Of a stretch of DNA of 43,959 nt, positions 148 to 18,725 are shown piece by piece. Below the pieces are notes generated by a model. It was not told where the DNA came from. It saw nothing but the letters and a program-made list of their open reading frames with translations, and did no database searches. Origin of the DNA: Dysgonamonadaceae bacterium (GTDB taxonomy: Bacteria > Bacteroidota > Bacteroidia > Bacteroidales > Azobacteroidaceae). The DNA lies in contig JAITQA010000046.1 of assembly GCA_031289145.1 (NCBI GenBank), positions 1 to 43,959 of the forward strand. Direction: 5' to 3'. Within the stretch, counting starts at the first letter, position 1, and each line of letters begins with the position of its first letter. The translations under genes were made by a program, and so were the position numbers.

Positions 148-259
148 TTGAACCATGATTTTAGTAAGATTCACTTGATTATCAAGATTTAATCCTGTAA
201 ATCTTCTTAATCTTGGCAATCTTTTCAATCTTGTAAAAATCCAGGTTCAGACTATTTTG
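148..259. repeat. Small dispersed element with terminal inverted repeats, copy A
   Basis: This AT-rich block starts at the stop codon of the FGE-like gene at 252 and runs downstream of it. It is nearly the same as 2356-2449, which lies at the same place after the paralogous gene. The ends are an imperfect inverted repeat: GAACCATGATTTT on the left against the complement of AAAATCCAGGTTC on the right, 11 of 13 matching. The interior is built from repeats of an AATCTT(G)-type word. Copy A has about 18 extra bases of that word compared with copy B. It resembles REP- or MITE-like intergenic repeats, and it could also act as the 3' end of the transcript. The rest of 1-251 shows no gene. Confidence 0.7.
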
Positions 260-1304
260 TGCTGGAGGCTAAGCGGAAGCCCAGATTGCTGTAGCTAAAG
301 TCAGGCGAATTGAAATAGCGATACGGAACACGCACGTTCTCTTCAATGCTGCTCAAACTACCGCCACGAAGCACGCGACCATGGCCATACGAAGGCCCTG
401 CCGGATTGGTCTGCGAATCGCTGCTATAAGCGCCGTACGGATCGCTGCACCATTCACGAACATTGCCGCTCATGTCATAAATGCCTAACTCATTCGGCAA
501 TTTCTGTCCTGCCGGATGCATTTGTCCACCACTGTTTTCTGTATACCATGCCACATTGTCTGCCGTATTGCTGCCACTGTATTTGTACAGAGCGGATCGC
601 GCTCCACCCCTACAGGCATACTCCCATTCCGCTTCCGTGGGTAAACGATAGTTCTTGCCGGTTTGGGTATTGATTTTCCGGATAAATGCCTGTACATCGT
701 TCCAACTTACCCGTTCTACAGGCAGGTTGTCACCCTTGAAATAGGAAGGATTACTGTCCATGACTGCTTTCCATTGCGCCTGCGTGACTTCGTATTTACC
801 GATGTAAAAATCGCTTAGCGTAACCCGATGCGCCGGTTTTTCACTATCATAGCAGTCGTTGCCCTGCTCGGCGGTGCAGCCCATGGTGAATGTGCCGCCC
901 GCGACATAGACCATGTCGATGCCATACTGATTGCCCGTCACATTGTCTATCAAATTGCCAGATGGTTTGCCTTGCGCAGTACACAAATCGTATTGTTTTT
1001 TGGCATTGCGATCTTTTGGGTTCAGTTTCAGTATTTCGTTGTACTGCTGCGCCGCTTTTTCGTAGTTTTTTTCTTCGAAAGCATAATTCGCAATTGCAAG
1101 ATACTGAGAGCATTTGATGGCATCGTTGATTTGCTGAGCGACGTTTTGGGTCGTGTTTTCTTGCATTTCGAATAATCGAAGGTTTTTTATGGCACACGCA
1201 TAGTCGCCTGCCTCTAAGCACTTGTCCGCTTCCTGCCGGTAGTCCTGGCTGTAGGCCAAGCTGACGGTGCAGCATAAAACCAAGAGGATTGGTATTTGTT
1301 TCAT
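252..1304 (-). CDS. Exported TPR / formylglycine-generating-enzyme-like (SUMF1) protein, copy 1
   Basis: The 350-residue product starts with a signal peptide (residues 1-19, ending LAYSQ). A TPR-like helical stretch follows (about 65-108, with FEEKNYEKAAQQYNEIL), then an FGE-sulfatase/SUMF1-type domain (about 130-350). Its hallmarks are GGTFTMG, YEVTQAQW, RLPTEAEWEYACRGG, YDMSGNVREW and a terminal GFRLA. The C-terminal stretch (VPYRYFNSPDFSYSNLGFRL) has no cysteine pair of the kind used by true formylglycine-generating enzymes, so a binding or adaptor role is more likely than sulfatase activation. It is the last gene of the minus-strand run, 84 bases after the caspase gene. It is a close paralogue of the product at 2442-3476, with shared signal peptide, TPR and FGE domain, so the two arose by duplication. 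Function is unknown. Confidence 0.88.
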   Translation of the reverse strand: MKQIPILLVLCCTVSLAYSQDYRQEADKCLEAGDYACAIKNLRLFEMQENTTQNVAQQINDAIKCSQYLAIANYAFEEKNYEKAAQQYNEILKLNPKDRNAKKQYDLCTAQGKPSGNLIDNVTGNQYGIDMVYVAGGTFTMGCTAEQGNDCYDSEKPAHRVTLSDFYIGKYEVTQAQWKAVMDSNPSYFKGDNLPVERVSWNDVQAFIRKINTQTGKNYRLPTEAEWEYACRGGARSALYKYSGSNTADNVAWYTENSGGQMHPAGQKLPNELGIYDMSGNVREWCSDPYGAYSSDSQTNPAGPSYGHGRVLRGGSLSSIEENVRVPYRYFNSPDFSYSNLGFRLASSTK

Positions 1305-1388
1305 ATTGAATAAATTATGAATTGTTGTTATTTACCTTCGTCGACTTCGTTCAGGGAACAGGGTTGTTTGATCTTCATATTTTGCTGT

Positions 1389-2261
1389 TTATTTGTAAGC
1401 CACAATAACCGTATTTTCGGAAAAACGGCCAAACATCACAGGGACTTGGCTTTTTCCCGTTCCGGATGAGACTTTATTTCTTACATACGTGTACATCTCT
1501 TTTGCCGTCACTTTCTTGTCTTTATTCGTATCTGCTTTGCCCTTAAAGGCTTCTATCAGGTAATAGGTAAAAACGCCTTGTCCCAATTCTGTGTGCTCTT
1601 CCGAATATTGATTGCCACGGGAAGACATGAAAACAATAATATTATTTGTTTTCAGTTTCGATTGGTCATTAAAGGCTTTATAGTACCCGGCAATCGTGTC
1701 TGGCGGCAATGTTTTACTTTGCCCTTTCTTGCGTATACTACCGGCGTGACAGGCATCTGCAATACAAATTTTCACCTTTGCTTTTGATTTTTTGAAAGCA
1801 GATTGAATTTCTTCATGTTCAAGAAAAGTGGTATAATCACCACAGTCGTACTGGCAAAAGGCTCCATTTATGCCGTGTCCCGAAAAGAAGAAGATAATCC
1901 GGTCGGACGCTTTGGCTTTGGCGAATTTAGCACGCATTTCATTCAAAATATTCTTTTCCGTTGCTTTTTCATTCAGCAACAGCGCCACGTTCGGATTTTG
2001 TTTTCCGGAAGTCAGTACTTTATAAAAAGCCTGGGCATCGGAAGCCGCATATTTTAAATTGTCTTCCGGGTCTTCGTAGCGTGAAACGCCCACAATAACT
2101 GCATAAACCTCCGCTTGTAGTGTGAAGCAAGTGAATAATGCGAAGATTAATAGATTGATTTTTCTCCTGCTTAAAATCCTCACCCCCGGCCCCTCTCCAG
2201 AAGGAGAGGGGAGCGTGGGGCTTTCATGCCCTGGGGCGTTTGTTGGACATTTCTGTTTCAT
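1389..2261 (-). CDS. Caspase-family (peptidase C14) protease with repeat-derived N-terminus
   Basis: This is a caspase/metacaspase-like cysteine protease of up to 290 residues. After a hydrophobic export segment (about 36-51, INLLIFALFTCFTLQA) the p20-like fold begins at VYAVIVGVSRY. The catalytic His sits in FFFSGHGING and the catalytic Cys in CIADACHAGS, so the dyad looks intact. The domain ends with EMYTYV and a final beta strand. Residues 5-30 are encoded by a GC-rich REP-like repeat (hairpin at 2190-2211) read in frame. Without it the protein would read MKQK joined to the signal peptide. The start is therefore uncertain: ATG at 2261, or GTG at 2183 inside the repeat, which would give a normal signal peptide. 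The gene lies between two FGE-like paralogues. Caspase/FGE pairs are known from bacterial conflict and cell-death-type gene sets, but the role here is inference. Confidence 0.87.
   Translation of the reverse strand: MKQKCPTNAPGHESPTLPSPSGEGPGVRILSRRKINLLIFALFTCFTLQAEVYAVIVGVSRYEDPEDNLKYAASDAQAFYKVLTSGKQNPNVALLLNEKATEKNILNEMRAKFAKAKASDRIIFFFSGHGINGAFCQYDCGDYTTFLEHEEIQSAFKKSKAKVKICIADACHAGSIRKKGQSKTLPPDTIAGYYKAFNDQSKLKTNNIIVFMSSRGNQYSEEHTELGQGVFTYYLIEAFKGKADTNKDKKVTAKEMYTYVRNKVSSGTGKSQVPVMFGRFSENTVIVAYK
2190..2211. repeat. REP-like GC-rich hairpin inside the caspase gene
   Basis: A perfect 9-bp inverted repeat (CCCCTCTCC, loop AGAA, GGAGAGGGG) sits in a longer GC-rich block (about 2175-2235) unlike the AT-rich surroundings. 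Similar GC-rich hairpin repeats are scattered through many bacterial genomes. It falls inside the reading frame of the caspase gene and adds a stretch rich in Pro, Gly and Ser. Confidence 0.75.
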
Positions 2262-2277
2262 ACGTATAATGAATATA

Positions 2278-2306: not shown

Positions 2307-2355
2307 TTAGATTTATCAATTGCAAATGTAGTCATTTTTTTATATTTCAATTGTT

Positions 2356-2449
2356 TTGAACCGTGATTTTAGTAAGATTTACTTGATTACCAAGATTTAA
2401 TCCTGTAAATCTTCTCAATCTTGTAAAAATCCCGGTTCAGACTATTTTG
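2356..2449. repeat. Small dispersed element with terminal inverted repeats, copy B
   Basis: This is a near copy of 148-259, starting at the stop codon of the FGE-like gene at 2442. The end inverted repeats (GAACCGTGATTTT against the complement of AAAATCCCGGTTC) match at 12 of 13 positions. It lacks about 18 bases present in copy A. Its position at the 3' end of both paralogues fits co-duplication of gene plus element. Confidence 0.7.
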
Positions 2450-3476
2450 AATTGGCGGCTAAGCGAAAGCCCAGAACGCTGTTGCGAAGACTGGGCGGGA
2501 AGTTGAGGCGAAACGGAACACGCACGTTCTGCACACTGCCGTACCAACTGCCGCCACGCCCCACGCGATGTGAGCCTGATGAAGGCCCAGTCGGGTTGGT
2601 TTGCAAACCGCTGCTGTAAGCGCCTTTCCAGTCGCTGCACCATTCCCAAACATTGCCGCTCATATCGTAAAGACTCAACTCGTTCGGTGATTTTTGTCCT
2701 ATCGGATGCGTTTGGTCGCCGCTGTTTTCCTTATACCATGCTACATCGTCGACTGTATTGCTGCCGCTGTATTTGTAGTGAGCGGAGTACGCTCCACCTC
2801 TACATGCATACTCCCATTCCGCTTCCGTGGGCAAACGGTATTTTTTGCCGGTTTGGGTATTGAGTTTCTTTATAAAAGCCTGTACATCGTCCCAATTTAC
2901 GTTTTCTACCGGCAGGGTGTCGCCCTTGAATTGCGAAGGATTACTACCCATGACCGCTTTCCATTGCGCCTGCGTGACTTCGTACTTGCCGATATAAAAA
3001 TCACTTAGCGTTACCTGATGCACAGGATTTTCAGCATCATTGCAGTCGTTGTCTTGCTCGGCGGTGCAACCCATGGTAAATGTGCCGCCCTTGACATACA
3101 CCATTTCAATGTCATCCTGATGAGCGCTTACATTTGCCGTTGGCTTCAGTTGGGCAATGCATACATCATATTGTTTTTTTGCTGAGCTGTCTTTCGGATT
3201 CAGTTTCAGTATTTTGTCGTACTGTTGCGCCGCTTTTTCGTAGTTTTTTTCTTCGAAAGCGTCATCTGCCAAAATGCGGGCTATCAGGCAGGTTTCCACA
3301 TTCCAAACTTCTTGATTTACGTCTTTTCCCGTATCATCGTGATAAAGTAACAGGTTGCGTTTTGCGCAATTGTAGTCACCTGCTTCTAAGCACTTGTCTG
3401 CTTCCTGCCGGTAGTCCTGGCAATAGGCCAAGCTGACGGTACAGAATAAAACTAATAAGATTGTTATTTTTCTCAT
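2442..3476 (-). CDS. Exported TPR / formylglycine-generating-enzyme-like (SUMF1) protein, copy 2
   Basis: This is a paralogue of the product at 252-1304, with the same layout: signal peptide (MRKITILLVLFCTVSLAYCQ), TPR-like segment (FEEKNYEKAAQQYDKIL), then an SUMF1/FGE-like domain with GGTFTMG, YEVTQAQW, RLPTEAEWEYACRGG, YDMSGNVWEW and GFRLA. The C-terminal region (VPFRLNFPPSLRNSVLGFRL) lacks the FGE cysteine pair. I place the start at 3476, giving 344 residues. The frame is open to 3503, but that start would overlap the kinase stop at 3494 and put nine polar residues before the signal peptide; 3476 also matches the start of the paralogue. The gene is 17 bases after the kinase gene, so co-expression is likely. 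A sensor, ligand-binding or substrate-adaptor role at the envelope is possible but unproven. Confidence 0.87.
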   Translation of the reverse strand: MRKITILLVLFCTVSLAYCQDYRQEADKCLEAGDYNCAKRNLLLYHDDTGKDVNQEVWNVETCLIARILADDAFEEKNYEKAAQQYDKILKLNPKDSSAKKQYDVCIAQLKPTANVSAHQDDIEMVYVKGGTFTMGCTAEQDNDCNDAENPVHQVTLSDFYIGKYEVTQAQWKAVMGSNPSQFKGDTLPVENVNWDDVQAFIKKLNTQTGKKYRLPTEAEWEYACRGGAYSAHYKYSGSNTVDDVAWYKENSGDQTHPIGQKSPNELSLYDMSGNVWEWCSDWKGAYSSGLQTNPTGPSSGSHRVGRGGSWYGSVQNVRVPFRLNFPPSLRNSVLGFRLAANSK

Positions 3477-3493
3477 AAGATTGTATTTATTTA

Positions 3494-5389
3494 TCAATTG
3501 CAATCCAATAATGCGCGTCTGACCTCAGCGGTGTTATTGAGTTTTTTTGCGTATTCGAAATGTTCTTTGATGTTCGAATCACACACTCCATCATTGATTG
3601 CTTTCATTGCTTTTCCTTTTTCAAGAAATTTGTTGTACCCCGTTGTATTGCCGGGGGATAGCTGGGAAATTTTTTTATAGAGCCGGTATGCTTCCTCCCA
3701 TCTTTTAGTGTTGAATGCCGCATCGGCCTGGCGCAAAGTTGTATTTATTTCCGCCTGCTTTTGCTTTTCCTGCTCTTCCTTTGATACACTCGCAGTATTT
3801 CCACTATTATTTTCCACGGGAACTGATGCTTCTTGCTTCGGTTCAGGGGTAGCAATCGCGACCGGTTCGTCAATGACTTCTTCGGCGGGTTCGTCAGTGA
3901 CTTCTGCAACCGATTCATAAACGACTTCTTCGACAGGGGCATCGGATTTTTTAGGAAATAAGAGGAGAATCGCTATCACAATGACTATTGATACTCCGAT
4001 TATTACCGACCATGAGAAGGTATGCTTGCCGTTTTTTTTACCTGTTTTCGTAGCATCATTTGTTTCAGCGTGAGTATTAATTTTTGGAACTACAGGAGAA
4101 GGCGTGACAACTTTATCGGCAATTAATTTTGTTTTTTCTTTCAGCCTTGTATCGCAATCGGCAATTTTTTGTTGCGTATCCGAATCTTCCGGTTTGTATT
4201 TCAAAGCCTTATGAAAACTATTTTTTGCCTCTAAATAGTTTTTGCTTGCAAAATATGCCGCACCTTTTTGAATCAAATCACGGAATAGGAGATCATTTTG
4301 CGCCAGTTTTTCTTCCTCTTGTAGTGCTCTTTTACAATTTGCTATTTTCCTGTTTAAGTCGTCATTGGTATTTATCCAATAATAGGCTTTTTGAAACTTA
4401 CTTAATGCTTCGTTCCATTTGCCGACATCGAAAAGTTTTTCTCCTTCGCTCAGTGCATTAGTGTAATCGGCTTCTCCAGCCATTAAAGCATTTTTAAAAG
4501 AATGTGCATCTTGAAAACGGTCAATACTTTTTATATTCATCGCTTTAAGTACAAGAAAATCCAAAAAAGCAGAGATATTGTTGTCTATATCCGAGGGGAA
4601 TGCCAAACCGGCAAAACCGGCGCTAATTGAACCACTATCAGGCGGCACCATTCCGGTGAGGCTGAAATATAAACTTGCACCCAAGGCATAAGTATCAATA
4701 GTGGGGCTAAATATTTTAAGCGAATTAATGTGGCTTTGTTCCGGAGGCGAAAACCCCTCTTTTCTGCCTGACAATAATTTACTGGTTTGTTTTACGTTTC
4801 CGGTTTCATCGTAGCTTAACGATATGCCAAAGTCTATCAGCAATGCTTTGTCCGTACTGTTGTCGATCAGGATATTGCTGGGTGTAATATCCAAATGCAG
4901 AATTTTTTTTTGGTGTACAAGTTCCAAAGCCGAAGCAATTTGGCTGATGTATTTTACCGAATCCTCCACAGAACATTTGCCTTTATCTTCCAGATTGATG
5001 CCATCAATATAATCCATCACGATGTAAGCGGTGTTGTTTTCTTCAAACACATCTATCACGCGCACAATATGCGGATGCTCCAGTGAGTTCAAAATGTGCG
5101 CTTCACTAATCAGTTTTTTACGCAAGCGGGCAAAATCCTCGCTTTTATCTGTGTTGGTGAAAGAAATAGTGGTGGTAGCATCTTTTCGGTAACAGAATTC
5201 CTTATAAAAAAATTCTTTAATAGCTACTCTTTGTTCGCCGGATTTTTTTAATCCCAAGTTAGTTGTCACATAAGAAATCCACGTAGCACGATAGGTTATA
5301 CCAAAACCACCGCCCCCCAGGTGCGCATCAATTCTGTATTTTCCTTGTTGCAGGATTGTTCCCGGTAATAAAGCCGAACTATTTTCCAT
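3494..5389 (-). CDS. Transmembrane Ser/Thr protein kinase with TPR repeats (PknB-type)
   Basis: This 631-residue protein has a eukaryotic-type kinase domain at the N-terminus. The glycine loop LGGGGFG is at 24-30, Lys58 in VAIKEF, Glu96 in the C helix, the catalytic loop HLDITPSN at 165-172 (Asp167, Asn172), DFG at 186-188 and SPPEQ in the activation segment. The usual HRD arginine is Leu, as in non-RD kinases. TPR-like helices follow (about 313-420), then one membrane span (459-479), an acidic Pro/Glu-rich linker with repeated EEV-type units, and an extracytoplasmic TPR-like segment (about 550-600). Unlike mycobacterial PknB it has no PASTA domains. Its first 11 bases overlap the end of the PP2C gene, which suggests translational coupling. 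It probably phosphorylates proteins read by the nearby FHA domains. Confidence 0.93.
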   Translation of the reverse strand: MENSSALLPGTILQQGKYRIDAHLGGGGFGITYRATWISYVTTNLGLKKSGEQRVAIKEFFYKEFCYRKDATTTISFTNTDKSEDFARLRKKLISEAHILNSLEHPHIVRVIDVFEENNTAYIVMDYIDGINLEDKGKCSVEDSVKYISQIASALELVHQKKILHLDITPSNILIDNSTDKALLIDFGISLSYDETGNVKQTSKLLSGRKEGFSPPEQSHINSLKIFSPTIDTYALGASLYFSLTGMVPPDSGSISAGFAGLAFPSDIDNNISAFLDFLVLKAMNIKSIDRFQDAHSFKNALMAGEADYTNALSEGEKLFDVGKWNEALSKFQKAYYWINTNDDLNRKIANCKRALQEEEKLAQNDLLFRDLIQKGAAYFASKNYLEAKNSFHKALKYKPEDSDTQQKIADCDTRLKEKTKLIADKVVTPSPVVPKINTHAETNDATKTGKKNGKHTFSWSVIIGVSIVIVIAILLLFPKKSDAPVEEVVYESVAEVTDEPAEEVIDEPVAIATPEPKQEASVPVENNSGNTASVSKEEQEKQKQAEINTTLRQADAAFNTKRWEEAYRLYKKISQLSPGNTTGYNKFLEKGKAMKAINDGVCDSNIKEHFEYAKKLNNTAEVRRALLDCN

Positions 5390-6437
5390 TTTCCTTCTTT
5401 TTAGCTGTATTTTCTTTTACTTTTTCGGTTTGAGGGTTTCTTTTTTTCTTCTCATTGAAGACACCCTGATTATTGAGCATTACCCAAAATGCAGCGCTTA
5501 ATGCAATGACAATTGCAATTATTATTAGCAAATACTTATTATTAAAAGCGCGTTTTTCCTTATTTGAATGGCTTGGATTGATAGCCCTGTTGGGAGTTTC
5601 GACTATTTCCTCTTTTTCTGCTTTTTCTTCTTCTTCAAGCGGCTTTGTTAACTCTTGTTGAAGTGTTTCGTCTTGTTCCTCCAATTGGATAGATGCTACC
5701 TGGAGCAGGATACAGGAAAAATTATCGTTGGCATTTTCTTCACAAAGCGATTTAATCCGGTCGATTTTATCCTGATTGCTGATGTTTTCAAATAGAATCT
5801 CAATCAGATTTTCATCGGAAACAGCTTCCAATATTCCATCGGAACATAAAAAGAAATAGTCGCCCGGATCTATGTTTTGCGTTTCATAGACATCTACTTT
5901 TGTCGGGCGATTGGACTTCCCGGAAATAGCATGCAGCAGTATATTTCTTTCAGGATGCACCAATGCCTGTTCTTCGGTTATTTCACCGATATCTACCAAG
6001 TGGTTCACATAAGAATGGTCTTTTGTTTGAAAAATAATGGCATTACTTCTCAAATGGTAAATTCGGCTATCGCCTGTATGCACCAAACTTGCTCCCAACT
6101 TGTTGAAACAGGCAAGCGTGAGGGTAGTTGCCATCCCTTTGGCATTCGGATTATTTTCGATGTAATGATCAAATTCATTTTCAGCGTGGTCTAATGCTTT
6201 TGAAAAGTATGTTTGATCATATTTTTCTGTTGGGTTGGAAGAAATGTAGTTTACAAACGAATTAAGGGCTAATTCGCTTGCAACTTCCCCCTTTTCACTA
6301 CCGCCGACTCCGTCACAAACGAGGTACAAGCCTTTTAGCGGATTTTCCGTCTTTTCATTGGGATATATAGCATCTTCATTATTTTCCCGTTTCCCTTTGT
6401 TATGTAAAAACTGATGTGGATATAGTTTTATTTCCAT
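5379..6437 (-). CDS. PP2C-family Ser/Thr protein phosphatase with C-terminal membrane anchor
   Basis: This 352-residue protein has the metal-binding PP2C motifs in order: RENNEDA (Asp22), CDGVGG (Asp42-Gly43), TGDSRIYHLR (Asp123), FLCSDGILEAVSD (Asp200) and NANDNFS (Asp238). All metal-coordinating aspartates seem present, so it should be an active Mg/Mn-dependent phosphatase. After a Glu-rich linker comes one membrane span (302-322, LLIIIAIVIALSAAFWVM) and a short Lys-rich tail. It overlaps the kinase gene by 11 bases and is the obvious partner that reverses its phosphorylation. It plays the part that PstP plays beside PknB in actinobacteria. Confidence 0.94.
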   Translation of the reverse strand: MEIKLYPHQFLHNKGKRENNEDAIYPNEKTENPLKGLYLVCDGVGGSEKGEVASELALNSFVNYISSNPTEKYDQTYFSKALDHAENEFDHYIENNPNAKGMATTLTLACFNKLGASLVHTGDSRIYHLRSNAIIFQTKDHSYVNHLVDIGEITEEQALVHPERNILLHAISGKSNRPTKVDVYETQNIDPGDYFFLCSDGILEAVSDENLIEILFENISNQDKIDRIKSLCEENANDNFSCILLQVASIQLEEQDETLQQELTKPLEEEEKAEKEEIVETPNRAINPSHSNKEKRAFNNKYLLIIIAIVIALSAAFWVMLNNQGVFNEKKKRNPQTEKVKENTAKKKENGK

Positions 6438-6458: not shown

Positions 6459-7067
6459 TTAGACCAATACTGTTTTACCTTTCGGTTGGTTCGAAACTAA
6501 CAGGGTAGCTTCTTTCTCATTTTTTGCTGTTTTATTTGATTTGAACACAATCTTGGTTCTACCTGCCTGAATAATATCGCTGTCTTGCAAGATATACTCA
6601 TCCCCTTTTTTTAAGGCTTGTAGTGTCACGGTGTTAATGAAAGTTCCATTCAAGCTGTTACAATCGGAAAGATAATATTCATATACATTTCTTTTGTTCT
6701 GCTCAACAGCAATAATAAAATGGTTACGACTCATGTAATCATCATCCGTTTCAACCATAATATCACATGGGCGAGTAGTTGATTTTTTCCCGATAATCTG
6801 GCGTCCAATCTTCAAAGAATAGGTTTGAAGCGGTGCATTTTCATCATGAACTACTAACCATCCAATACCATTATTTTCATTGCTATTTTCAGACGTCGGA
6901 CGATTTTCTGCGTTTCCCTGTATGCCCTGTTTTTCTACCAAAGGCTTTACATCTTGAGGGACAAATGTTTTTTTGCATATCGGGCATAAAACCGTTGGCG
7001 TTCCTTTTTCAAAAGCCGAATCTGCAACCTTTATTCTTGAAGCGCAATGCTCGCATTTAATCATCAT
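6459..7067 (-). CDS. FHA-domain protein with N-terminal zinc ribbon
   Basis: This 202-residue, probably cytoplasmic protein starts with a zinc-ribbon-like segment: CEHC at 5-8 and CPIC at 28-31, resembling the small MJ0042-type finger. A variable linker (about 40-68) precedes a forkhead-associated domain (about 70-178) with GKKSTTRPCDI, the binding-loop motif SRNH (113-116) and NSLNGTFIN (137-145). FHA domains bind phosphothreonine, so this is a likely reader of the kinase encoded two genes downstream. Two Met codons open the frame; either may be used. The gene lies 21 bases before the phosphatase gene. Confidence 0.9.
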   Translation of the reverse strand: MMIKCEHCASRIKVADSAFEKGTPTVLCPICKKTFVPQDVKPLVEKQGIQGNAENRPTSENSNENNGIGWLVVHDENAPLQTYSLKIGRQIIGKKSTTRPCDIMVETDDDYMSRNHFIIAVEQNKRNVYEYYLSDCNSLNGTFINTVTLQALKKGDEYILQDSDIIQAGRTKIVFKSNKTAKNEKEATLLVSNQPKGKTVLV

Positions 7068-8237: not shown

Positions 8238-8906
8238 TTACATATTGTTTTTCTTAAAACTTTTCTGACAATGCGGACATTTCCCTTCCTGCGCATAGTA
8301 ATCCCATGAGAATTGTGTTCCTAATGACTTGCTACATTCAGGACATTTAAAACTGCGTTGTAAATCTTCATTCAATTGTCGTAACTCTTCGCCACTACCG
8401 TTAGGAACAAAAGCGCTTGCAATTGCTCCTGCAACAACAGATATTACGATGAAGTATTCTCCGATAAAACTTTTGAAACAGAATCCCACGCCAATTATGC
8501 CTAACATAATTACCAGTCTGATGAATCCGGATTTGCGTTGATACTTTTTGGTAATATCTTTCCGCTTTTTCTGTGCGTTTTCCCAAACCGCTTTCAAGTT
8601 GTAGAATCCATCCGTATAAATGGTGTTTAAAGGTACCGGAATTGAAGGAATATTTCCAAAGATTTTATCAAGTTCAAGATAAGTATCTTTTGACAAACGA
8701 ATTTCGTCATTCGTACTCACATGTGCCCTCCTAACGGGATGTCCGTTAACAAAAGTGTGATTGGAAGATTTCAAGTCTTCAATCAAAAAATAATTCTCCT
8801 CTATGCGAGAAATTTTCAGATGATGTTCACTGATATCCGGTTTATCAATTTGGATATCGTTGTCTATTCCCCTGCCGATTGTTTTTATTTCCATTTTCTT
8901 TTCCAT
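8238..8906 (-). CDS. Membrane FHA-domain protein with C-terminal zinc ribbon
   Basis: This 222-residue protein has an N-terminal FHA domain (about 8-80) with IGRGIDNDI, the phosphopeptide-loop motif SEHH (26-29) and SSNHTFVNG. A basic helical linker is followed by two membrane spans (about 127-144 and 151-167). The C-terminal zinc ribbon has CPEC (188-191) and CPHC (210-213). It mirrors the Zn-FHA protein at 6459-7067: same two modules, opposite order, plus membrane spans. It lies 30 bases after the SEDS-PBP gene, so it may recruit or regulate that synthase in response to phosphorylation, as the FHA protein FhaA and its neighbours do in mycobacteria. Confidence 0.9.
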   Translation of the reverse strand: MEKKMEIKTIGRGIDNDIQIDKPDISEHHLKISRIEENYFLIEDLKSSNHTFVNGHPVRRAHVSTNDEIRLSKDTYLELDKIFGNIPSIPVPLNTIYTDGFYNLKAVWENAQKKRKDITKKYQRKSGFIRLVIMLGIIGVGFCFKSFIGEYFIVISVVAGAIASAFVPNGSGEELRQLNEDLQRSFKCPECSKSLGTQFSWDYYAQEGKCPHCQKSFKKNNM

Positions 8907-11900: not shown

Positions 11901-14279
11901 TAACGACGAGAAAACGGCAGCAATAATCAGCATCCTTGTTTTAACTTTTTTCTTTACTTTTTCATTCCGACACTTGTATACATTGTAACAGAAAAAGTAA
12001 ACCAATGGAAAAACGATGAAGATAACATAGCAGATCACCATAATTGAAAGGTCTTTAATCCGTGAGGTTAAATTCCAAAATACAATTAGAAACGCAGGGA
12101 CTATAATCAGGACAAGAAGCGAGATCACGGTTAAGCGATGCGGTAATTTCTTCCATTTTTCATCCAAGTAATCATACCATCTTGCCACATTGCACAGGAC
12201 GTAATACGTTATGGAACTGAGGAGGAAAATAAAAGCAAAACCCATATCGCCCAGCAAAGAAAAAAGTACTAAAAACCACTGTACGTGGATTTGAGCCGTT
12301 GACTTTGCCAATTGTTTTTCCTGTTCCGGATTTGGTCGTGAGTAGGTGTATTTGAAGTAAAGCGCAGTGAGTAAAAAGACGCTTATCGGAATCAAAATAA
12401 TTGTTGTCGGAGTACGATAACTCCAAGCAGCAAAAATGGAAAGAATTTGAAAGACGAGCCAAAAATTCCAATGGGTTGATTTGGCTATTTTCGGCACAAT
12501 TTTTTCTATGATTTTGGGCAATTGATAAATTTTACAAAGGAGATATATCACTAAGAAAAAGAGTAATAAGAGGATAGAGGTACTGTATCGATACAAAAAA
12601 CCAATATGGGATAAAGAACCCACCGTGCTTTGCCGAAGCAATGCAAAATGATTTTCCGAAATACCTGACAATGGTGCAAAAACCCCTGCCCGCCATTGTA
12701 ATATAAAGCGTATGCTAATCAAAGTAAGAAGGATAAAAAGGAATGGCGCTTCAAAAATTTGGACAGTTTCAGTGCGTAAACTGCTTTGATTCTTCTTTTT
12801 GAATAATCGAGATGGAATAGCGTTAATCAGCAGAATCAAAATGCCGGTAAACAGGATTACAAATAAAACGGTATTTATGCCTAAACCGTTTGTACTGCGC
12901 AAATCTGTAATCTCAAATAAGCATTTTACACGGCTATCATTGGTGGATAGCGCAAATGTTTCTTTGCTTTCAATGGCTTTGCCTGAAACATTATTGTCGG
13001 GATTGTTCCGGTCAGACCAATTGATACGCAACGGTTCAAAGCTTGTTCCGATGGTGTAATTGATTGTTCCGTTGTAATAATATGCGGAATTTGGATTGCT
13101 TAATGCTCCCAGATAAAAAGCGTTCCTCGTATCAGCGTCTAACAAATGATCTTCGGAATTTGTAACGAGGACGCTGAAATTTTTGTCTTTGTTTCCTTCC
13201 TTAAAATGAAATTTAGGGCCAAAATGAACGATGATTTTATGTCCTGAATCACCTTGTTCATACCTGTAAATTAACGAGCGATAGTTCCCTGCAACACCGG
13301 TAAAGAAACGTTCGCCTTGTTGTAAAGGTACGTTAATGTTGGGAATTGTAGATTGATTGGGTATGATTTCTTCATCAATTGTAAGTCTCAATTGATTACT
13401 GTTCAGGATAAAATTCTCTCCGGGATAAAATAACAAATCGGCATCGGGATTAGGATATGCCGGATTGAAAGCGCTTCGCAATAACCATGCATTATCCAAA
13501 ATAGCCAATGCATCGTCGGAAAGAAATAACGAATCACATTTCTCAACTAAATCGGAAATTCTTATACCTCTTTTGATTACAATTCCTAAATCGCTATTTA
13601 AAGTATAATTTTCTGCGCCGTTACTTATTCTGTATTCATATTCAAAAACGTCCTTTTTAATTGCAAGACCCAAGAATTTTTTCGGCGTTTTATTAATTTC
13701 AATGGCAATAAGGGTATCCGTTTCATTATTGTTTATTTTCTCAATAGCGAAATGATTTCGGATTCCTTGCGTAAAGACCGGATTTTTGAGGTGAAATACA
13801 TTTCCTTGGTGTTCATCGCTATAAACAGGTTTTAAGAAATTACTTCCCTGTATTGAATTGCCTTGCAAAAACAGTTCCCCGACTTCATCCTCCCAGACAG
13901 CGCTACCCAGATTGTCGGAAACCAAATTCAAACGATCGGTATATTCAAATCCTTTTTGCGCCAAGCTATATACCTGCGTGTTGGAATAAAAACTGAATGG
14001 AGAATATTTGCTTCCGATGCCGAAGGCAAGCCAAAAGCAAGCAACAGTTAAGAAAATGCCATAAGTTGCTGTCCTGTTTTTATATGTCAATAATTCGAAA
14101 GCATTCTTTTTCCCCTGAACAATTCGATACCAATTGAAAAAATGCTGGATACAGATAAAAAGACAAAAAGCTACGACAGAAAAGAAAGTCGGATAAACCA
14201 AACAGAGAACGAAAAGCCCTAATCCAACTAAATCAAGGGGCGTAAACCAATTGCTTATCTTATTCATAGTGTTATTCAT
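8937..14279 (-). CDS. SEDS (RodA/FtsW-like) glycosyltransferase fused to class B PBP transpeptidase
   Basis: This 1780-residue membrane protein has several parts. There are membrane spans near 13-48 and 71-90, then a large beta-rich extracytoplasmic domain of unknown type (about 95-465). A polytopic region (about 468-1032) ends with SEDS-like features: TGIGSNYVTQANDL, whose Asp880 aligns with the catalytic Asp of RodA/FtsW, ISEHGWMVGI, and FIGQDFPFIVFNSGASL in place of the usual PLPFxSYGGSS. A class B PBP follows: GDLLDKNGAILAR (about 1155), NVTLDMALQDAI (about 1208), SxxK as GSTTKP (Ser1395, Lys1398), SxN as SSN (1471-1473), ISPMDMAVYCA (about 1616) and the KTG box as KSGT (1706-1709). It should therefore both polymerise and cross-link peptidoglycan. 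Its start overlaps the previous stop by one base. RodA and PbpA are normally separate proteins. Confidence 0.85.
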   Translation of the reverse strand: MNNTMNKISNWFTPLDLVGLGLFVLCLVYPTFFSVVAFCLFICIQHFFNWYRIVQGKKNAFELLTYKNRTATYGIFLTVACFWLAFGIGSKYSPFSFYSNTQVYSLAQKGFEYTDRLNLVSDNLGSAVWEDEVGELFLQGNSIQGSNFLKPVYSDEHQGNVFHLKNPVFTQGIRNHFAIEKINNNETDTLIAIEINKTPKKFLGLAIKKDVFEYEYRISNGAENYTLNSDLGIVIKRGIRISDLVEKCDSLFLSDDALAILDNAWLLRSAFNPAYPNPDADLLFYPGENFILNSNQLRLTIDEEIIPNQSTIPNINVPLQQGERFFTGVAGNYRSLIYRYEQGDSGHKIIVHFGPKFHFKEGNKDKNFSVLVTNSEDHLLDADTRNAFYLGALSNPNSAYYYNGTINYTIGTSFEPLRINWSDRNNPDNNVSGKAIESKETFALSTNDSRVKCLFEITDLRSTNGLGINTVLFVILFTGILILLINAIPSRLFKKKNQSSLRTETVQIFEAPFLFILLTLISIRFILQWRAGVFAPLSGISENHFALLRQSTVGSLSHIGFLYRYSTSILLLLFFLVIYLLCKIYQLPKIIEKIVPKIAKSTHWNFWLVFQILSIFAAWSYRTPTTIILIPISVFLLTALYFKYTYSRPNPEQEKQLAKSTAQIHVQWFLVLFSLLGDMGFAFIFLLSSITYYVLCNVARWYDYLDEKWKKLPHRLTVISLLVLIIVPAFLIVFWNLTSRIKDLSIMVICYVIFIVFPLVYFFCYNVYKCRNEKVKKKVKTRMLIIAAVFSSLVVLGMFYKSDKVNDLMRNTHFRSLLIKEKVSDMIEDIDNNRDAASFFNSAHNQWLINTYSHKSPMVSTMDVKPHTGIGSNYVTQANDLISIRYVISEHGWMVGIFLWLLLLIPLFSRIYFNFDKRQQLPYYEKSTQLNTFMNIDLFVLILVFMLAFVVWLSATNRFIFIGQDFPFIVFNSGASLCYLLIFFFIALWTKSSDQKYIYSELSSVQKHSPKWRRLFFISVLIVALGSCMSIIRFINPNKSDATDLGMSDFVEKTERVIDELNDRFVPFQEDNRSLRNLDSLVIHFDSYLKEQPDTMEYIPSYLNNEYQKFLQIKNKANSSNFIYLKRKSGIYLLTLNERFYNLSSPFDNKKYWKGDLLDKNGAILARYMWVNGKNRHVYPRKENLIWAYNMTEYIRSNVKKQSDQNLNVTLDMALQDAIGGMLNRTYAGLNTEQMNRPADRRFYLQLDRFQNLNYAAKTSRNNSHLQLIETNGIFSVTGSTYSKINSINTKLQKFGYQLRQYYRAKNYVALNNRINSLIEEAMYNDNFVNLVVLDGNGNVRIMMDHGKNRKFNPNRLAASYNYIDEIINMGNSGTERKKFGDRSLLINNNPGNGSTTKPIMYTAMTSQYDFPGGWGNLIVQNGVDNSNAKYDANNINYVENYAGRRIKAKWKIPHYSSNAHYTPVTYLTKSSNLYNSVMLFLGSFTPLELDNYNFQRNPVRNTWKFPELRIGNSTCYLDSVHWPGVNDSLFNNQQSILATGLRTNYGILTDNKETFPSRKINITHADFLQKKGKRNYSTTGWILPEQATFYQQDRAKSFRDAIANPTSGGSPIRISPMDMAVYCARTLTLNKDFVPSFFENDNLSYSKFESAWNGFAKYHRDTIVYALNRIFYDGTFRGIRGSVFMDNQTAKIRNNDGQVFFIYGKSGTSADMENSRFGDDHLAIFLISNQDLSGAEREPENAKFYTVFLNVSWSNYGEIRSHILTQIINSQLFNEYMNQ

Positions 14280-15286
14280 TACTTAATTTGATATTGAATT
14301 TTATTCTCTGAGATGAGTACATCCAAATCGGTTATTCCATAATGAAGGCAAAACAAAGAATATGACAGCAGGTTTGATGGAATATTTCTGCCGTCAAACT
14401 GCTGATTGTTTTGTTCTGCACTCATTTGCTGAACATGAAGGCCATTATTCATCATTTCGAAATTGTCGTGTCCTGCATTTCCGGTTTGTATCAGATTATT
14501 TTCGCGTCTGTTTCGGATATAATCACGGAAAATCACAGATAGTTCCAAACTGTTTTTTAAGAAAAGTAAACGGTCTTTCTCGTCCTTAACATTTAACCTG
14601 CCGGGATTTTGGATAAAAGATTCGTATCGTTCAAACACCTTGTTTAAGAATTGTTTATCCTGATTAAAGCGTTTTGTTTGCTCAATAATGCCTTTCAACA
14701 AAAGATAAAAACTTAATTTAATGTCTTTGTTTACAATTGGCAAATTGTTATATTCCTCCAACCATTGATTTCCGCTTTTTGAGATTCGTGCAAAATCTTC
14801 AGCAGAAACTGAAATATGTTTCTGAACGAAAAACCGGATAATCAGATTTTCATCTTCGGTTGTATTTTTTGGTTTACCTTCCTGTTTTATGGCTTTTAAG
14901 GCTTCTATTTCACTATAAAGTCTTTCATTCTCAATTTGGCATTGTTCTAAAGAATCATACAAATCCGTCTTGGTTTCTTTGTCTTCTAATGCTTTGGATA
15001 TTTTAGAATCAAGTTGGATAATTAATTCTTTGATTTCGTCATTATTGCTTTGCCTGCTTTTCTTCAATTCTTTTTTTAATTGATAAGAAATAAAAACCAA
15101 ATAAAGCAATAAGCCTAAGACGATTCCAAAAATAATAATGATTACAAGAGCGGTAGTATCGGTAAACAAATTTCTCTGCGTAGTTGACAAAGCCTCGTAT
15201 GGAGAAGCTACCAAAGTGTCTTTTGCAACTTTGAGCGAATCCAGAACTAATTTCACTGAGTCAGTTGATGTATTTAATGTGCCCAT
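14279..15286 (-). CDS. Single-pass membrane protein with coiled coil, function unknown
   Basis: This 335-residue protein has a short N-terminal extracytoplasmic segment (1-44), one membrane span (about 45-68, rich in Ile/Leu/Val) and a Lys/Glu-rich coiled coil (about 69-145). A mostly helical cytoplasmic domain (about 155-335) follows and I do not recognise it. The C-terminal part is Asn/Gln-rich around 270-300. The stop codon shares one base with the start of the SEDS-PBP gene, a TAATG-type junction, which implies coupled translation. It may be a scaffold or regulator of the synthase, comparable in layout but not in sequence to division or elongation accessory proteins. It starts 5 bases after the Hsp70-like gene. 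Confidence 0.85.
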   Translation of the reverse strand: MGTLNTSTDSVKLVLDSLKVAKDTLVASPYEALSTTQRNLFTDTTALVIIIIFGIVLGLLLYLVFISYQLKKELKKSRQSNNDEIKELIIQLDSKISKALEDKETKTDLYDSLEQCQIENERLYSEIEALKAIKQEGKPKNTTEDENLIIRFFVQKHISVSAEDFARISKSGNQWLEEYNNLPIVNKDIKLSFYLLLKGIIEQTKRFNQDKQFLNKVFERYESFIQNPGRLNVKDEKDRLLFLKNSLELSVIFRDYIRNRRENNLIQTGNAGHDNFEMMNNGLHVQQMSAEQNNQQFDGRNIPSNLLSYSLFCLHYGITDLDVLISENKIQYQIK

Positions 15287-15291
15287 AGTAA

Positions 15292-17925
15292 TTATATATT
15301 AAAAGGGAAAAATGATTCGTATAACATGTTACTTAAAAGACGGTTAGTGTCCTGCTTCCATGGGTCAAATTCAGCGAATTTCACTTGTCCTTCATTTCTT
15401 TTGTCCCGGTATTGAATTAAAAATCCTTTTCCGACAAAATAGCCTTTAGCGCCGTATTCCCTGTTTATTTCATCCGGCATTTCGTATCCGTTGAAACGAA
15501 TAGCAGAACTATTATCTCTTGTTGATTCGGTAATAAACTGATGTCCTTCATAAAACAATTTTCGTTCGTACTTATCCATATTATTTTTAATATCTGAAAT
15601 TATAGTGTTGGAGAATAATATTCCCGATAATTCGGAACCGTTGTTTACCCCAGCATCCTTAATGATAGCTCCAATGATGGAGGCATATTTAAAATAGTTT
15701 GTATCTCCATTTTCCATACTGATTGGATAAAAAGAGAAATGAACTGTTTTCCTAATCTCTTCTTTTAAGATAGCCGCTTCGTGTGCCGCAGTTTCATTAC
15801 GCTTTCTACTTCCCCAAACATTTCTTAACTTATTCTTAACGCTTCTCTTTTCAATCTCAAGTTCAAAATCAATAATTTTTTCTCTCAGACATTCTTCCAA
15901 GCGATTTTTTAATGGAACGTATAGAAAACATCGGCCACTGTAAACGGCAATGTCTATTTTATTTTTAGGATGTTCCGGATTCCAAAAGTCGGCGGAAGTT
16001 AGTTTGAACAGTACGGATGCTGTAATGTTATCAATCCGTTTTTTTATCTCTTCTGGAAGATGCTTATACTCATTACAAAAAAACATGGAAGCGTGTTTAT
16101 TGGCATTGAGAAGACCGATAAAACCGTCTAAATTTTCACTTTTCAATAAATTATATGCTTTCCAATAGAATGAATTTTCAAGTATGGCTTTTTCTTCGAT
16201 TGATGAGTTCTTTTTCATTTCATCAAAAAAGTTTATCAAGTGAAGTCTTTGCTGATACTTTAATCCACGGATATGTTCTTTAATTGTCGTAATGTTTATT
16301 GATGAAGCATCCCAAGCATCGCAATAGGACTTTAATAATTGTTTTTCATTATCGCTCTTGTCATCAGGGATTAAAAGAATGAACTCCCTAATACATTTTA
16401 TCTTCAGCCGAGGACTTGATTCCTGCTCACGGATTTTCTCATATTGATCTTTTAGGTAATGTTCATTTGCGAACTTTGATACTACCACTTGTACCAATTT
16501 ATCTATCTCGTTCATCAAACTTTCTTTTGATAATGATTTATTGAGTCGGTTAATAAAATAGTCAAAAAAAGCATAAGTAATCAAATCACCGGCTCCGGCA
16601 AACCCTGACCTGTACAACGAAAAAATATGTTTGTCATTTCCCTCTTTAACAAAACAAACGCCAATATCCATTGTGCCTTTTCCACCGTCAATCGTTAAGA
16701 CCATTTTACCACCAAAATGATTATTTCTATCTAACTTTATTTCTTTGATGATAGCCGCTTCGCTTTCCGCAATAACACTCACTTCAACAGCTATATCTAA
16801 TTGCCTGTCTTTCGATAAAACTTGTTCTTTTATTTGGTTAAAGTGGCGATAAGTATATTCAATCATATCAAATATTTCTTCGTGCCGATAAATATTCGGA
16901 GCTAAAAGACGAAGATTTATGCCTATCGTTTTTGCATTTGAATGATCAACCTCAAGTATGGATGATAATAATGTGCGTACAAGCGTCATCGTTAGTTGTT
17001 TCCTGATATTCTCGAATATCCTCTCCAGATGTACGGTTCCCCCACCTTTTCGGCTTAATGAAATATTGTCGTTAATTCTCCAACTATGGAAATCATTATT
17101 ATGTAGTTTATACAGCTTTAAATTCGGTAACAAATAACCCTCTGCATTTGTAGTTTCTGTACCCTCAAGTAAATGAATATCTTCGTTAAATTCTGCTGTT
17201 GAAAAGATTTTAGTTTTATCTTGGTGATCATGGCTCAAAATCGGACTTATCGGAAAGACAGAACGGTAAAGATCTTTTTTCTTCGAAGTGTCTTCTTGCC
17301 AAAATTCGGATGAAGTATTTTTTAATTCATCTTTGAGTTTTTCAATGATGTCAATTTTTTTTGCATACAAAGGATTGATTGTATCAGCGTTAATGTATTT
17401 TATCTGTGATGATTCGGAACCGAAATCGACAGCTCCATAATATATATGCGCTGCCTCAATAAATGTAAGAGAAAAGGTGTCATAATAACATTTTTCATTA
17501 GGACCCAATTTGATATTCACATTCAAAATTCCCTGGTATCTTACATCATTTTGATAAACAACAATCTCTTCGTCATATACTTTCATTGTGTATTGTTCAA
17601 CTTTAACCGGATCATCCTGTTGCTCATTTTTATCCGTCATTAACAGAGAAAGTGTATTCCCTTTTGAATCAAAATTCAGGTTAAATGATAAATCACTCAA
17701 TTTTATATTCAATTCTTCTTTTTCTTCTGAAATAAGGAAATATGAATCAATCCTGATACTAAACAATTGTAAATTTTGTTGATTGGGTTTACATTCAATT
17801 ATATAGTTACGTGTGACACCGGCATTATTATCTTGTGCGTTATCCGCTTTTAAGCAAGCATAATGAATCCGCCAATGTTTGCTATTGTCGGGGCGTATTG
17901 TTATCGGTAAATAAAACTTATCCAT
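15292..17925 (-). CDS. Hsp70/actin-fold ATPase-like protein
   Basis: This 877-residue protein has the two phosphate-binding motifs of the actin/Hsp70 ATPase fold. Phosphate 1 is VDFGSESSQIKY near residues 166-177. Phosphate 2 is TIDGGKGTMDIGV near 411-423, preceded by AESEAAI, which resembles the EPTAAA helix of Hsp70. GFAGAGD (about 441) matches the later Gly-Gly-Asp region. The first 160 residues are beta-rich and unlike DnaK, and the C-terminal half is a long helical region with no substrate-binding domain I recognise. The frame is open to 18057, but I choose the ATG at 17925. The longer form would overlap the upstream gene by 118 bases and add an odd aromatic-rich N-terminus; 17925 lies 14 bases after the upstream stop. 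It may be an ATP-driven scaffold or chaperone of the signalling complex. Confidence 0.8.
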   Translation of the reverse strand: MDKFYLPITIRPDNSKHWRIHYACLKADNAQDNNAGVTRNYIIECKPNQQNLQLFSIRIDSYFLISEEKEELNIKLSDLSFNLNFDSKGNTLSLLMTDKNEQQDDPVKVEQYTMKVYDEEIVVYQNDVRYQGILNVNIKLGPNEKCYYDTFSLTFIEAAHIYYGAVDFGSESSQIKYINADTINPLYAKKIDIIEKLKDELKNTSSEFWQEDTSKKKDLYRSVFPISPILSHDHQDKTKIFSTAEFNEDIHLLEGTETTNAEGYLLPNLKLYKLHNNDFHSWRINDNISLSRKGGGTVHLERIFENIRKQLTMTLVRTLLSSILEVDHSNAKTIGINLRLLAPNIYRHEEIFDMIEYTYRHFNQIKEQVLSKDRQLDIAVEVSVIAESEAAIIKEIKLDRNNHFGGKMVLTIDGGKGTMDIGVCFVKEGNDKHIFSLYRSGFAGAGDLITYAFFDYFINRLNKSLSKESLMNEIDKLVQVVVSKFANEHYLKDQYEKIREQESSPRLKIKCIREFILLIPDDKSDNEKQLLKSYCDAWDASSINITTIKEHIRGLKYQQRLHLINFFDEMKKNSSIEEKAILENSFYWKAYNLLKSENLDGFIGLLNANKHASMFFCNEYKHLPEEIKKRIDNITASVLFKLTSADFWNPEHPKNKIDIAVYSGRCFLYVPLKNRLEECLREKIIDFELEIEKRSVKNKLRNVWGSRKRNETAAHEAAILKEEIRKTVHFSFYPISMENGDTNYFKYASIIGAIIKDAGVNNGSELSGILFSNTIISDIKNNMDKYERKLFYEGHQFITESTRDNSSAIRFNGYEMPDEINREYGAKGYFVGKGFLIQYRDKRNEGQVKFAEFDPWKQDTNRLLSNMLYESFFPFNI

Positions 17926-17939
17926 TGTTATATTGAAAT

Positions 17940-18725
17940 TTATTTTCTTAGTAAATACATGATTGATATAACTATCAAAAAACCAGTTAGAAAACACAAA
18001 ACACCGACCAAAATATTTCTGATTGATTCGGATTTTATCCATTTTTTGAATGCGCAATTCTTTTTCGGCTTCTTGAATGGTTCTTCAGCTAAAATTTCTT
18101 CTCTTGTTTCGATTGTCTTAACACGAGGCTTGGATGGAAATTTAGCTGCAATCTTTTCCAATCTATCTTTATAAATGGCGGATTGCATGAACTCGTCATT
18201 TTCGCTGCTCACTTTATCAATAAAAATTTCAGGAAAAACCGCTTTGCTGCTGATCGCATTATAGTCAATTTCATTTTCTATTTCTTTTTGCAAAGCAATT
18301 ATTAGCACGTCATCCATTTCTACCGAAATCGTTTCCTTTGTAATACTATTAAAAATACCATTATGCCTTATCAAAAATTTATTTCCCCTGAAGTGTAAAA
18401 CACACAAATCGCCTGTTAATAAAATATTCATTTTGTCTTCGACCGGATAAATCACCGCCAGTCCATTCATCTGTTTTTTAACATTTTCGTTTAGAATCAG
18501 CGTATGGAAAATAGCGCTCTTCGTCTTTAGCGCTTCTTCGTCAAGATAAAAATCGTTGGCTTTTATTTCAGCTATTGAAGCAAGCAAGTCTGAATGCTCA
18601 ATGCTGTTGTTGGTAGATAAAAAAACGTATGAAGTTGCATCTTTTTCATTCTCAGAATTAAAAGGAAACTTTATTGTTGCCTTTACTCTTGAGATATTTA
18701 CATACAAAGAGTGTAGTGTAATCAT
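17940..18725 (-). CDS. Membrane-anchored protein resembling a degenerate PP2C phosphatase
   Basis: This 261-residue protein is probably the first gene of the minus-strand run. It ends in one membrane span (about 236-258, ILVGVLCFLTGFLIVISIMYLL), with a basic Pro/Lys linker before it. The middle resembles the PP2C core: GLAVIYPVEDKMNILLTGD-LCVL (Gly105-Asp106) fits the strand pair around the GDSR motif, and SVEMDDVLIIAL fits the PGDxLLLCSDG segment. The N-terminal Asp and the DGxGG motif are absent, so it would be a pseudo-phosphatase if this reading is right. I place the start at 18725 because a good TAnnTTTG promoter element (18753-18760) overlaps the earlier possible start at 18755. The PP2C assignment is tentative. 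Confidence 0.72.
   Translation of the reverse strand: MITLHSLYVNISRVKATIKFPFNSENEKDATSYVFLSTNNSIEHSDLLASIAEIKANDFYLDEEALKTKSAIFHTLILNENVKKQMNGLAVIYPVEDKMNILLTGDLCVLHFRGNKFLIRHNGIFNSITKETISVEMDDVLIIALQKEIENEIDYNAISSKAVFPEIFIDKVSSENDEFMQSAIYKDRLEKIAAKFPSKPRVKTIETREEILAEEPFKKPKKNCAFKKWIKSESIRNILVGVLCFLTGFLIVISIMYLLRK

Follow-up and report, generated by a model that had tools for sequence, protein, structure and literature searches.

Does a row of twelve closely packed genes encode one signalling pathway, or is it an assembly of separable parts? The question is raised by positions 252 to 18,725 of contig JAITQA010000046.1 from a Dysgonamonadaceae bacterium of the phylum Bacteroidota. The window, that is, the whole stretch of DNA analyzed here, was this complete contig (G000:C168, 43,959 bases), which belongs to a 3.94-Mb assembly. 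The original prediction had read the row as one wall-signalling system. According to the present analysis, the row probably carries an accessory single-chain peptidoglycan synthase cassette that has its own ATPase and, in the window genome, stands under a phospho-switch. The row as a whole looks like a local assembly of three parts: the accessory wall synthase, a phospho-switch that can be separated from it and, more loosely joined, a tail with a caspase and proteins resembling formylglycine-generating enzymes (FGE). This is because the gene order of the synthase core was conserved, the switch was not seen with other cores and occurred alone in another genome (G1136), and the FGE genes differed in codon composition and spacing. 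A gene row that resembles one signalling pathway can thus be an assembly of separable modules.

Conservation and distribution of the three-gene core

The core consists of three genes, listed here in the order of transcription.

15292..17925, minus strand: core gene 1, probable Hsp70/actin-superfamily ATPase, 877 residues (invariant motifs, hhalign)
14279..15286, minus strand: core gene 2, protein with one transmembrane helix (TM; residues 38-71) and a probable coiled coil judged by eye, 335 residues
8937..14279, minus strand: core gene 3, giant SEDS-penicillin-binding protein (PBP), 1780 residues with approximately 15 TMs (hydropathy, profile-profile comparison)

All 24 loci mapped had the ATPase first, then one or more intervening genes, then the synthase, all on one strand. 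At a 25th locus, in genome G1105, an apparent ATPase end, a 923-residue coil-type protein and a synthase truncated by the contig end followed each other in this order as well. An extra small open reading frame (ORF) or a broken coil gene lay between ATPase and synthase in G862 and in GMC9, a Bacteroidales metagenome-assembled genome (stretch L013, listed under G077, is the first 20,000 bases of its stretch L019).

Searched with the window protein alone, the order yielded a synthase relative in one of 197 other genomes. Relatives were also detected in 1 of 394 others in a phylum sample and in 2 of 394 others in a class sample, one of which had already been found. The window's own family gave 1 of 44 other genomes, the order of G862 gave 1 of 22 (G862 itself), and a named collection held at least two synthase loci, one of them G077 again. 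A single family stood out with 20 of 195 genomes, one previously found genome included. The samples overlapped, and the total came to 25 loci including the window. The core is rare in the sampled genomes except in that one family (20 of 195). No synthase relative was found in viral contigs, plasmids or phages, and no ATPase relative was found in plasmids. Although G1105 belongs to the window's genus, the synthase tree placed it in a group with GMC9, apart from the window (support 0.949), suggesting transfer or old paralogy.

Further genes were noted around the core. A conserved protein of approximately 150 residues followed the synthase in 14 of the 24 loci, but not in the window (e.g., L021:5573-6022 and L018:13434-13895); it had one N-terminal TM in the two copies checked and no Pfam match above the cut-off in the two scanned. 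A second family (approximately 380 and 300 residues; L021:6033-8073), also without a Pfam match in the one copy scanned, adjoined the core at 11 loci of one family. In GMC9, a DUF4407 membrane protein lay directly upstream of the core (L013:196-936), and a MotB-plug/OmpA-like protein with weak Pfam matches lay approximately 2.6 kb downstream of the synthase (L013:12881-13510). A protein that looked similar to the DUF4407 protein by eye was located downstream of the core in G862 (L049/L050).

The synthase as a probable single-chain SEDS-PBP protein

The following parts and residues were distinguished in the product of core gene 3.

12888..14012, minus strand: N-terminal domain (about residues 90-464), a loop that joins TM3 to TM4 and is probably extracytoplasmic
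11313..12767, minus strand: SEDS-like part, about residues 505-989, with seven TMs, an 87-residue loop and three TMs (hydropathy, hhalign)
11640..11642, minus strand: Asp880, which lies in the large loop, is invariant in all 25 members and is the candidate for the catalytic Asp of the polymerase
8940..11240, minus strand: PBP part (about residues 1014-1780), led by a TM of its own (hhalign to Bacteroidales PBPs)
10086..10097, minus strand: SxxK motif (Ser1395, Lys1398), invariant in 25 of 25
9861..9869, minus strand: SxN motif (Ser1471, Asn1473), invariant in 25 of 25
9153..9164, minus strand: K[ST]GT motif (Lys1706-Thr1709), conserved in all 24 members reaching that far

The last motif was judged in 24 members, the G1105 synthase ending at the contig end; it reads KSGT in the window protein and KTGT in the 23 others. 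Glu890 was invariant alongside Asp880 in the family alignment.

The original prediction of a RodA-PBP synthase gained support for both parts from profile-profile comparison by hhalign. The synthase profile was built from an alignment of 18 of the 24 mapped members. The comparison profiles were prepared from 25 RodA/FtsW and 24 PBP2/FtsI-type proteins of 15 genomes of the order, after a length filter had dropped 2 of 27 SEDS and 3 of 27 PBP sequences. The SEDS part matched RodA/FtsW with P values of 2e-6 in local mode (157 columns) and 1e-8 in global mode, at probabilities of 89-95%. The PBP part matched PBP2/FtsI with a P value of 1.5e-7 over 277 columns of the catalytic region, at a probability of 94%. 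Mismatched pairs used as controls, such as the SEDS part against PBPs or the ATPase against SEDS proteins, gave P values of at least 0.055. The N-terminal outer domain matched neither SEDS proteins (P 0.055) nor PBPs (P 0.72), and PDB-sequence profile searches with the synthase gave nothing usable. A search of the window genome for SEDS polymerases up to an E value of 1 recovered two canonical genes and nothing else.

Hydropathy and loop charges, with helix borders placed by hand, gave a layout of three TMs, the 375-residue outer domain, one TM, seven TMs, the 87-residue outer loop, three TMs, one further TM and the PBP domain. The loop charges alternated broadly rather than perfectly, the two long outer loops being net positive where counted. 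SEDS proteins have ten TMs, and their large catalytic loop follows TM7 and precedes TM8; the position of the 87-residue loop between the seventh and eighth SEDS helices fits this RodA/FtsW layout. The synthase may accordingly be described as a RodA layout joined to a PBP anchor and a new N-terminal part. In G993 and G1068, the synthase was split into two genes, with the break inside the SEDS part. The idea that these genomes encode the outer domain as a separate gene was rejected because the first protein (590-595 residues) also holds the first SEDS helices.

The ATPase and the coiled-coil protein

For core gene 1, a start at the ATG at 17925 was preferred over the TTG at 18057. Two motifs, D167FGS..Q174 (D-F-G-S-x-x-x-Q) and D413xGKGTxD420 (D-x-G-K-G-T-x-D), were invariant in 21 aligned ATPases; in a third, G-R-x-F, G664 was invariant and R665 and F667 were nearly so. 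We take these to be the phosphate-1, phosphate-2 and adenosine motifs of the superfamily. A profile of 21 of the 24 ATPases matched DnaK with a P value of 8.8e-5 (probability 60%), FtsA with 7.3e-4 (26%) and MreB with 9.1e-4 (23%; the MreB set was used without 1 of 15 sequences, the window genome's own, which is cut), while the controls gave at least 0.19. Whole-length similarity to DnaK including the substrate-binding domain was not found, the match covering 52 columns. The protein most likely belongs to the Hsp70/actin (ASKHA) superfamily. The Hsp70/actin-like ATPase named in the original prediction was thus upheld without a Pfam match, on the invariant phosphate-type motifs and on weak but correctly placed DnaK, FtsA and MreB matches above the controls.

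In core gene 2, the TM is followed by positive charges, which points to a cytoplasmic coil. A profile of 19 coil relatives, applied with filters off to 589 proteins, recovered the window copy with an E value of 8.5e-5 and the G862 copy with 3.2e-4. The protein showed no likeness to the genome's own MreC, represented by one sequence (hhalign P 0.2). All three core proteins of the window lay under every Pfam and NCBIfam cut-off, so the core escapes current annotation. The first gene of the row, described below, had no match above the cut-off in either collection, and the acidic repeat protein had none in Pfam.

Organization of the gene row and the separable phospho-switch

Twelve ORFs were confirmed on the minus strand at 252..18725, as the original prediction had placed them, and those between the core and the caspase/FGE end, together with the first gene of the row, are as follows.

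17940..18725, minus strand: first gene of the row, 261 residues, C-terminal TM (ORF, hydropathy)
8238..8906, minus strand: FHA protein b, with an FHA domain (PF00498, E 6.7e-17), a hydrophobic stretch at residues 125-171 and a Cys-rich C-terminus
7095..8210, minus strand: acidic repeat protein, 371 residues, no family above the cut-off (Pfam)
6459..7067, minus strand: FHA protein a of the switch module, with a zinc-ribbon-like N-terminus (PF00498, E 7.4e-14; relative in L152)
5379..6437, minus strand: PP2C phosphatase of the switch module, with a C-terminal TM at residues 297-324 (PF13672, motifs)
3494..5389, minus strand: Ser/Thr kinase of the switch module, with a TM at residues 455-484 and TPRs on either side of it (Pfam, hydropathy, motifs)

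Gene calling took the longest ORFs from 60 residues upward, a procedure that short genes and true starts may escape. From upstream to downstream, the gaps were 14, 5, -1, 30, 27, 27, 21, -11, -10, 180 and 84 bp; nine of the eleven were 30 bp or less, and the two large ones (180 and 84 bp) flanked the caspase gene. Pfam supported the kinase with its TPRs, the PP2C phosphatase, both FHA domains, the caspase (C14) and two FGE-like domains, in agreement with the original prediction. A motif search found the active-site or binding motifs in all these proteins, except for the catalytic Cys pair of FGE. The PP2C protein also matched an NCBIfam model of the Stp1/IreP type (E 9.7e-54), under the cut-off of that model. 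The GC content at third codon positions (GC3) was 0.31-0.40 in the core and switch genes and 0.53-0.55 in the FGE genes. Promoter-like sites (58 against 57.7 in shuffled sequences) and terminator-like sites (15 against 16.0) were as frequent as in shuffles, and their predictions are therefore uninformative on the operon limits. Judged by their similar composition and spacing, the core and switch genes may be co-transcribed; the caspase/FGE end is joined more loosely.

The first gene was a pseudo-PP2C candidate in the original prediction. This was unsupported, as the profile comparison with PP2C gave a P value of 0.07 and the motif search found a single GD. A proposed relative in Spirosoma (L018:17781-18932) was likewise unsupported (BLASTP E 9.6), an earlier profile match being trivial because both proteins were seeds.

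If all twelve genes worked together in wall signalling as one system, perhaps ending in proteolysis or cell death, the single strand, the nine short gaps and the similar GC3 of core and switch would be readily understood, and caspase and caspase-FGE genes also lay beside the core of Spirosoma. However, no kinase, PP2C or FHA gene was found in any of the 23 other core neighbourhoods when the 589 ORFs of the 24 neighbourhoods were searched. The kinase, PP2C, FHA, FGE and caspase profiles were built from 3-7 sequences, with the window and Spirosoma copies among the seeds. The window kinase lies within 5.5 kb of the core; the sequence downstream of the core extended over at least 9.6 kb in 19 of the 23 neighbourhoods and over 0.1-2.7 kb in the other 4. 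Moreover, the FHA, PP2C and kinase genes were found alone, in the window's order and without the core, in G1136, a genome of the same family (L152:7844-10927). The G1136 genome held no synthase relative, and other window genes were not recognized in the surrounding 20 kb. The caspase/FGE genes, in turn, were set off by the gaps of 180 and 84 bp and, for FGE, by GC3. One system of twelve genes is consequently considered unlikely, and the FHA-PP2C-kinase switch is a module separable from the core. Conservation of gene order, which had been set beforehand as the test of the original prediction, held for the core (24 of 24 loci, and G1105) and failed for the kinase, PP2C and FHA genes (0 of 23) and nearly so for the caspase/FGE genes (1 of 23).

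FHA protein b was seen, among the core loci, in the window only. A further cluster of FHA, kinase, kinase, FGE and, farther on, PP2C genes was present on contig C11 of the window genome.

In actinobacteria, pknB, pstP, fhaA/B, rodA and pbpA form a cluster. The window row resembles it in functional classes, and in content the likeness drawn by the original prediction stands. It does not extend further, as the SEDS and PBP parts are fused in the window, the kinase carries TPRs and no PASTA match in Pfam (a PASTA-kinase model with a cut-off of 450 bits scored it at 138), and the set was not seen together elsewhere (0 of 23). The G1136 module has the three families of the window switch in the same order, but its genome lacks a synthase relative.

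Proposed action of the cassette

The genes and their order, conservation, motifs and hydropathy pattern, and the occurrence of the switch by itself, are direct observations; enzymatic activity, the polymer made, coupling by the coil, phosphorylation targets, trigger, time of use and purpose of the cassette are what we infer from them. On the outer side of the inner membrane, glycan strands would be made by the SEDS-type polymerase, with Asp880 as the candidate catalytic residue. The class B PBP fused to it in the same polypeptide would then cross-link these strands through Ser1395. The one-TM coiled-coil protein would couple the synthase to the cytoplasmic Hsp70/actin-family ATPase, which may load, assemble or gate it. 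Since the FHA-PP2C-kinase switch lies in the tight gene row of the cassette, the activity of the cassette is probably set by threonine phosphorylation, and the membrane FHA protein is the likely reader. Canonical FtsW and RodA are encoded elsewhere in the window genome, as is an mreB-mreC-mreD-PBP2-RodA operon (at G000:C63). Thus, the cassette is regarded as an addition and not as a replacement or the housekeeping machine.

Several results weigh against this account. The synthase had no PF01098 and no PF00905 match up to an E value of 0.1, and its homology comes entirely from profile-profile hits, at hhalign probabilities of 88-95%. The region at residues 1040-1320, ahead of the transpeptidase part, did not match PBPs (hhalign P 0.095), and the comparison thus offers no support for a PBP pedestal. 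The canonical catalytic Asp was aligned by hhalign to about residues 873/874, which vary within the family, and not to Asp880; the latter is still favoured as the candidate because it is invariant and its distance from the conserved Glu is close to the canonical spacing. The ATPase matches spanned 42-52 columns round the second phosphate motif, at probabilities of 23-60%. A PDB search with four ATPase sequences gave Hsc70 at an E value of 0.051 beside unrelated hits at 0.17, and with 21 sequences it gave no Hsp70 and an unrelated Cag protein at 0.0047. Homology of the coil protein was weak in GMC9 (one ORF, E 0.0033; the gene is interrupted by unknown bases) and was not shown in G1068 with the profile of 19 relatives (E 0.24). 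The switch was seen next to the core in one genome only. Finally, the deep branches of the two trees differ: the synthase tree pairs the window with G993/G1068 (support 0.853), the ATPase tree with the G961 group (0.839). On the supporting side, the ATPase and synthase distances were correlated (r 0.964 for 23 loci and 0.904 for 11 deep representatives, each reached by 0 of 2000 permutations), with truncated G1045 and G1105 omitted and the longer piece used for the split pair; as no species-tree correction was made and the deep branches differ, the correlation is read as largely shared history and not as interaction.

Comparison with known systems

The Rod complex of the same genome and the core are alike in having an ASKHA-type ATPase, then a one-TM coiled coil, then SEDS and class B PBP activities, a parallel that suggests a similar way of working. 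Unlike the Rod complex, the core has SEDS and PBP in one chain with SEDS first, and no separate MreD gene. The core synthase carries a large N-terminal outer domain and measures 1780 residues, against 482 + 616 residues. The core ATPase is nearest to DnaK among the three families tested, its MreB match being weaker, and the core coil, probably cytoplasmic, lacks an MreC match. The core is not assigned to the Rod complex, given the missing MreC match and an ATPase that is not recognizably MreB.

PMC10449877 states, citing the Rhodococcus RHA1 genome, that single-ORF SEDS-PBP fusions exist, and it gives Asp262 as the catalytic Asp of Escherichia coli RodA. A SEDS-PBP fusion is therefore not new by itself. 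Both these natural fusions and the core synthase unite the two activities in one polypeptide; the core synthase would be set apart by approximately four TMs beyond those required for SEDS plus PBP, by the 375-residue outer domain, and by its occurrence in Bacteroidota beside an Hsp70-like ATPase. The literature covered, with many subscription papers and preprints outside its scope, held no description of a cassette with this ATPase, outer domain and spread in Bacteroidota, and a term search of the available part of PMC8195603 gave no match.

The SEDS-like part might instead make or ligate another lipid-linked glycan, or attach the wall elsewhere, with the PBP part as its anchor to peptidoglycan. 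Such a role would suit its distance from RodA/FtsW, which is too great for Pfam, its position behind an outer domain of undefined fold and the presence of canonical synthases; in PMC10449877, moreover, the SEDS catalytic Asp is compared with His338 of the O-antigen ligase WaaL. However, the full transpeptidase triad, found in all 24 members that can be judged, argues for a peptidoglycan substrate, and this alternative appears improbable.

Very improbable is a conflict or stress island in which the core is a device for defence or self-destruction and not a growth machine: its patchy distribution, the different core lineage in same-genus G1105 and the PADLOC scores, obtained by the kinase with PD-T4-6 as well as further kinase models and by the caspase with a caspase model, would agree with it, but we judge such kinase models to be general, the three core proteins had no PADLOC match, the synthase had no relatives in viral contigs, plasmids or phages, and no MoxR, vWA, STAND, TRAFAC GTPase core or nuclease domain was present in the window genes scanned (the last 2 kb lay outside the scan). 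According to PMC7159879, NTP-dependent conflict systems are built on a MoxR AAA+ ATPase with vWA or on a TRAFAC GTPase core, and membership in them was rejected on these absences; SEDS, FtsW, RodA and penicillin are not mentioned in the available parts of two conflict-system papers.

The accessory peptidoglycan synthase cassette thus remains the preferred explanation. In the SEDS-PBP pairs that have been studied most, the two partners are usually separate proteins guided by filaments of FtsZ or MreB. A conserved cassette with both activities fused, and with an Hsp70/actin-type ATPase next to it in every mapped locus, would offer a compact, testable model of a cytoplasmic ATPase controlling wall synthesis. 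A bolder proposal, which we hold tentatively and consider rather doubtful, is that the cassette represents a third class of machine for wall synthesis, next to the divisome and the Rod complex. Such a machine would be single-chain, with its own outer domain and a dedicated Hsp70-family ATPase in place of an FtsZ or MreB filament, patchy in Bacteroidota and phospho-switched in the window genome.

The caspase/FGE end and the divergent neighbour

The downstream end of the row consists of three genes.

2442..3476, minus strand: FGE-like protein b, probable signal peptide, TPR (weak match) (PF03781, E 1.9e-53)
1389..2261, minus strand: caspase-like protease with SGHG and DACH motifs, probably exported (PF00656, E 6.1e-26)
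252..1304, minus strand: FGE-like protein a, probable signal peptide, TPR (weak match) (PF03781, E 7.6e-52)

By eye, FGE-like protein b probably starts at about 3476 rather than 3503, and the true start of the caspase probably lies inside the ORF at 1389-2261. The 5' part of this ORF (2178-2225) reads ESPTLPSPSGEGPGVR, possibly a repeat when judged by eye; the signal-peptide start lies further in. Formylglycine-generating enzymes have a catalytic C-terminal Cys pair. This pair was absent from both FGE-like proteins, the last Cys being residue 286 in protein a and 289 in protein b, with none in the C-terminal NLGFR region; the reading as formylglycine-generating enzymes was thus rejected. The FGE-like gene and its downstream flank form a tandem duplication (137-1305 and 2345-3477, 78-92% identical).

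Among the 24 neighbourhoods, caspase genes occurred in the window and Spirosoma only, and so did FGE genes, apart from a weak hit in a polysaccharide lyase of the window. The proposed cell-death or proteolytic output comes down to one loosely spaced caspase gene; the caspase and caspase-FGE genes beside the Spirosoma core (1 of 23 other neighbourhoods) speak in its favour.

Divergent to the row, positions 19005-41705 hold a pectin/rhamnogalacturonan utilization locus with an extracytoplasmic function (ECF) sigma factor, FecR and SusC/SusD. It includes two GH28 genes, an RGL11 lyase, a GH88-GH28-GH2 fusion (1834 residues), a GDSL esterase and a porin O/P. At its N-terminus, the RGL11 rhamnogalacturonan lyase (28407-30830) has a domain of the FGE-like type (PF03781, E 4e-27).

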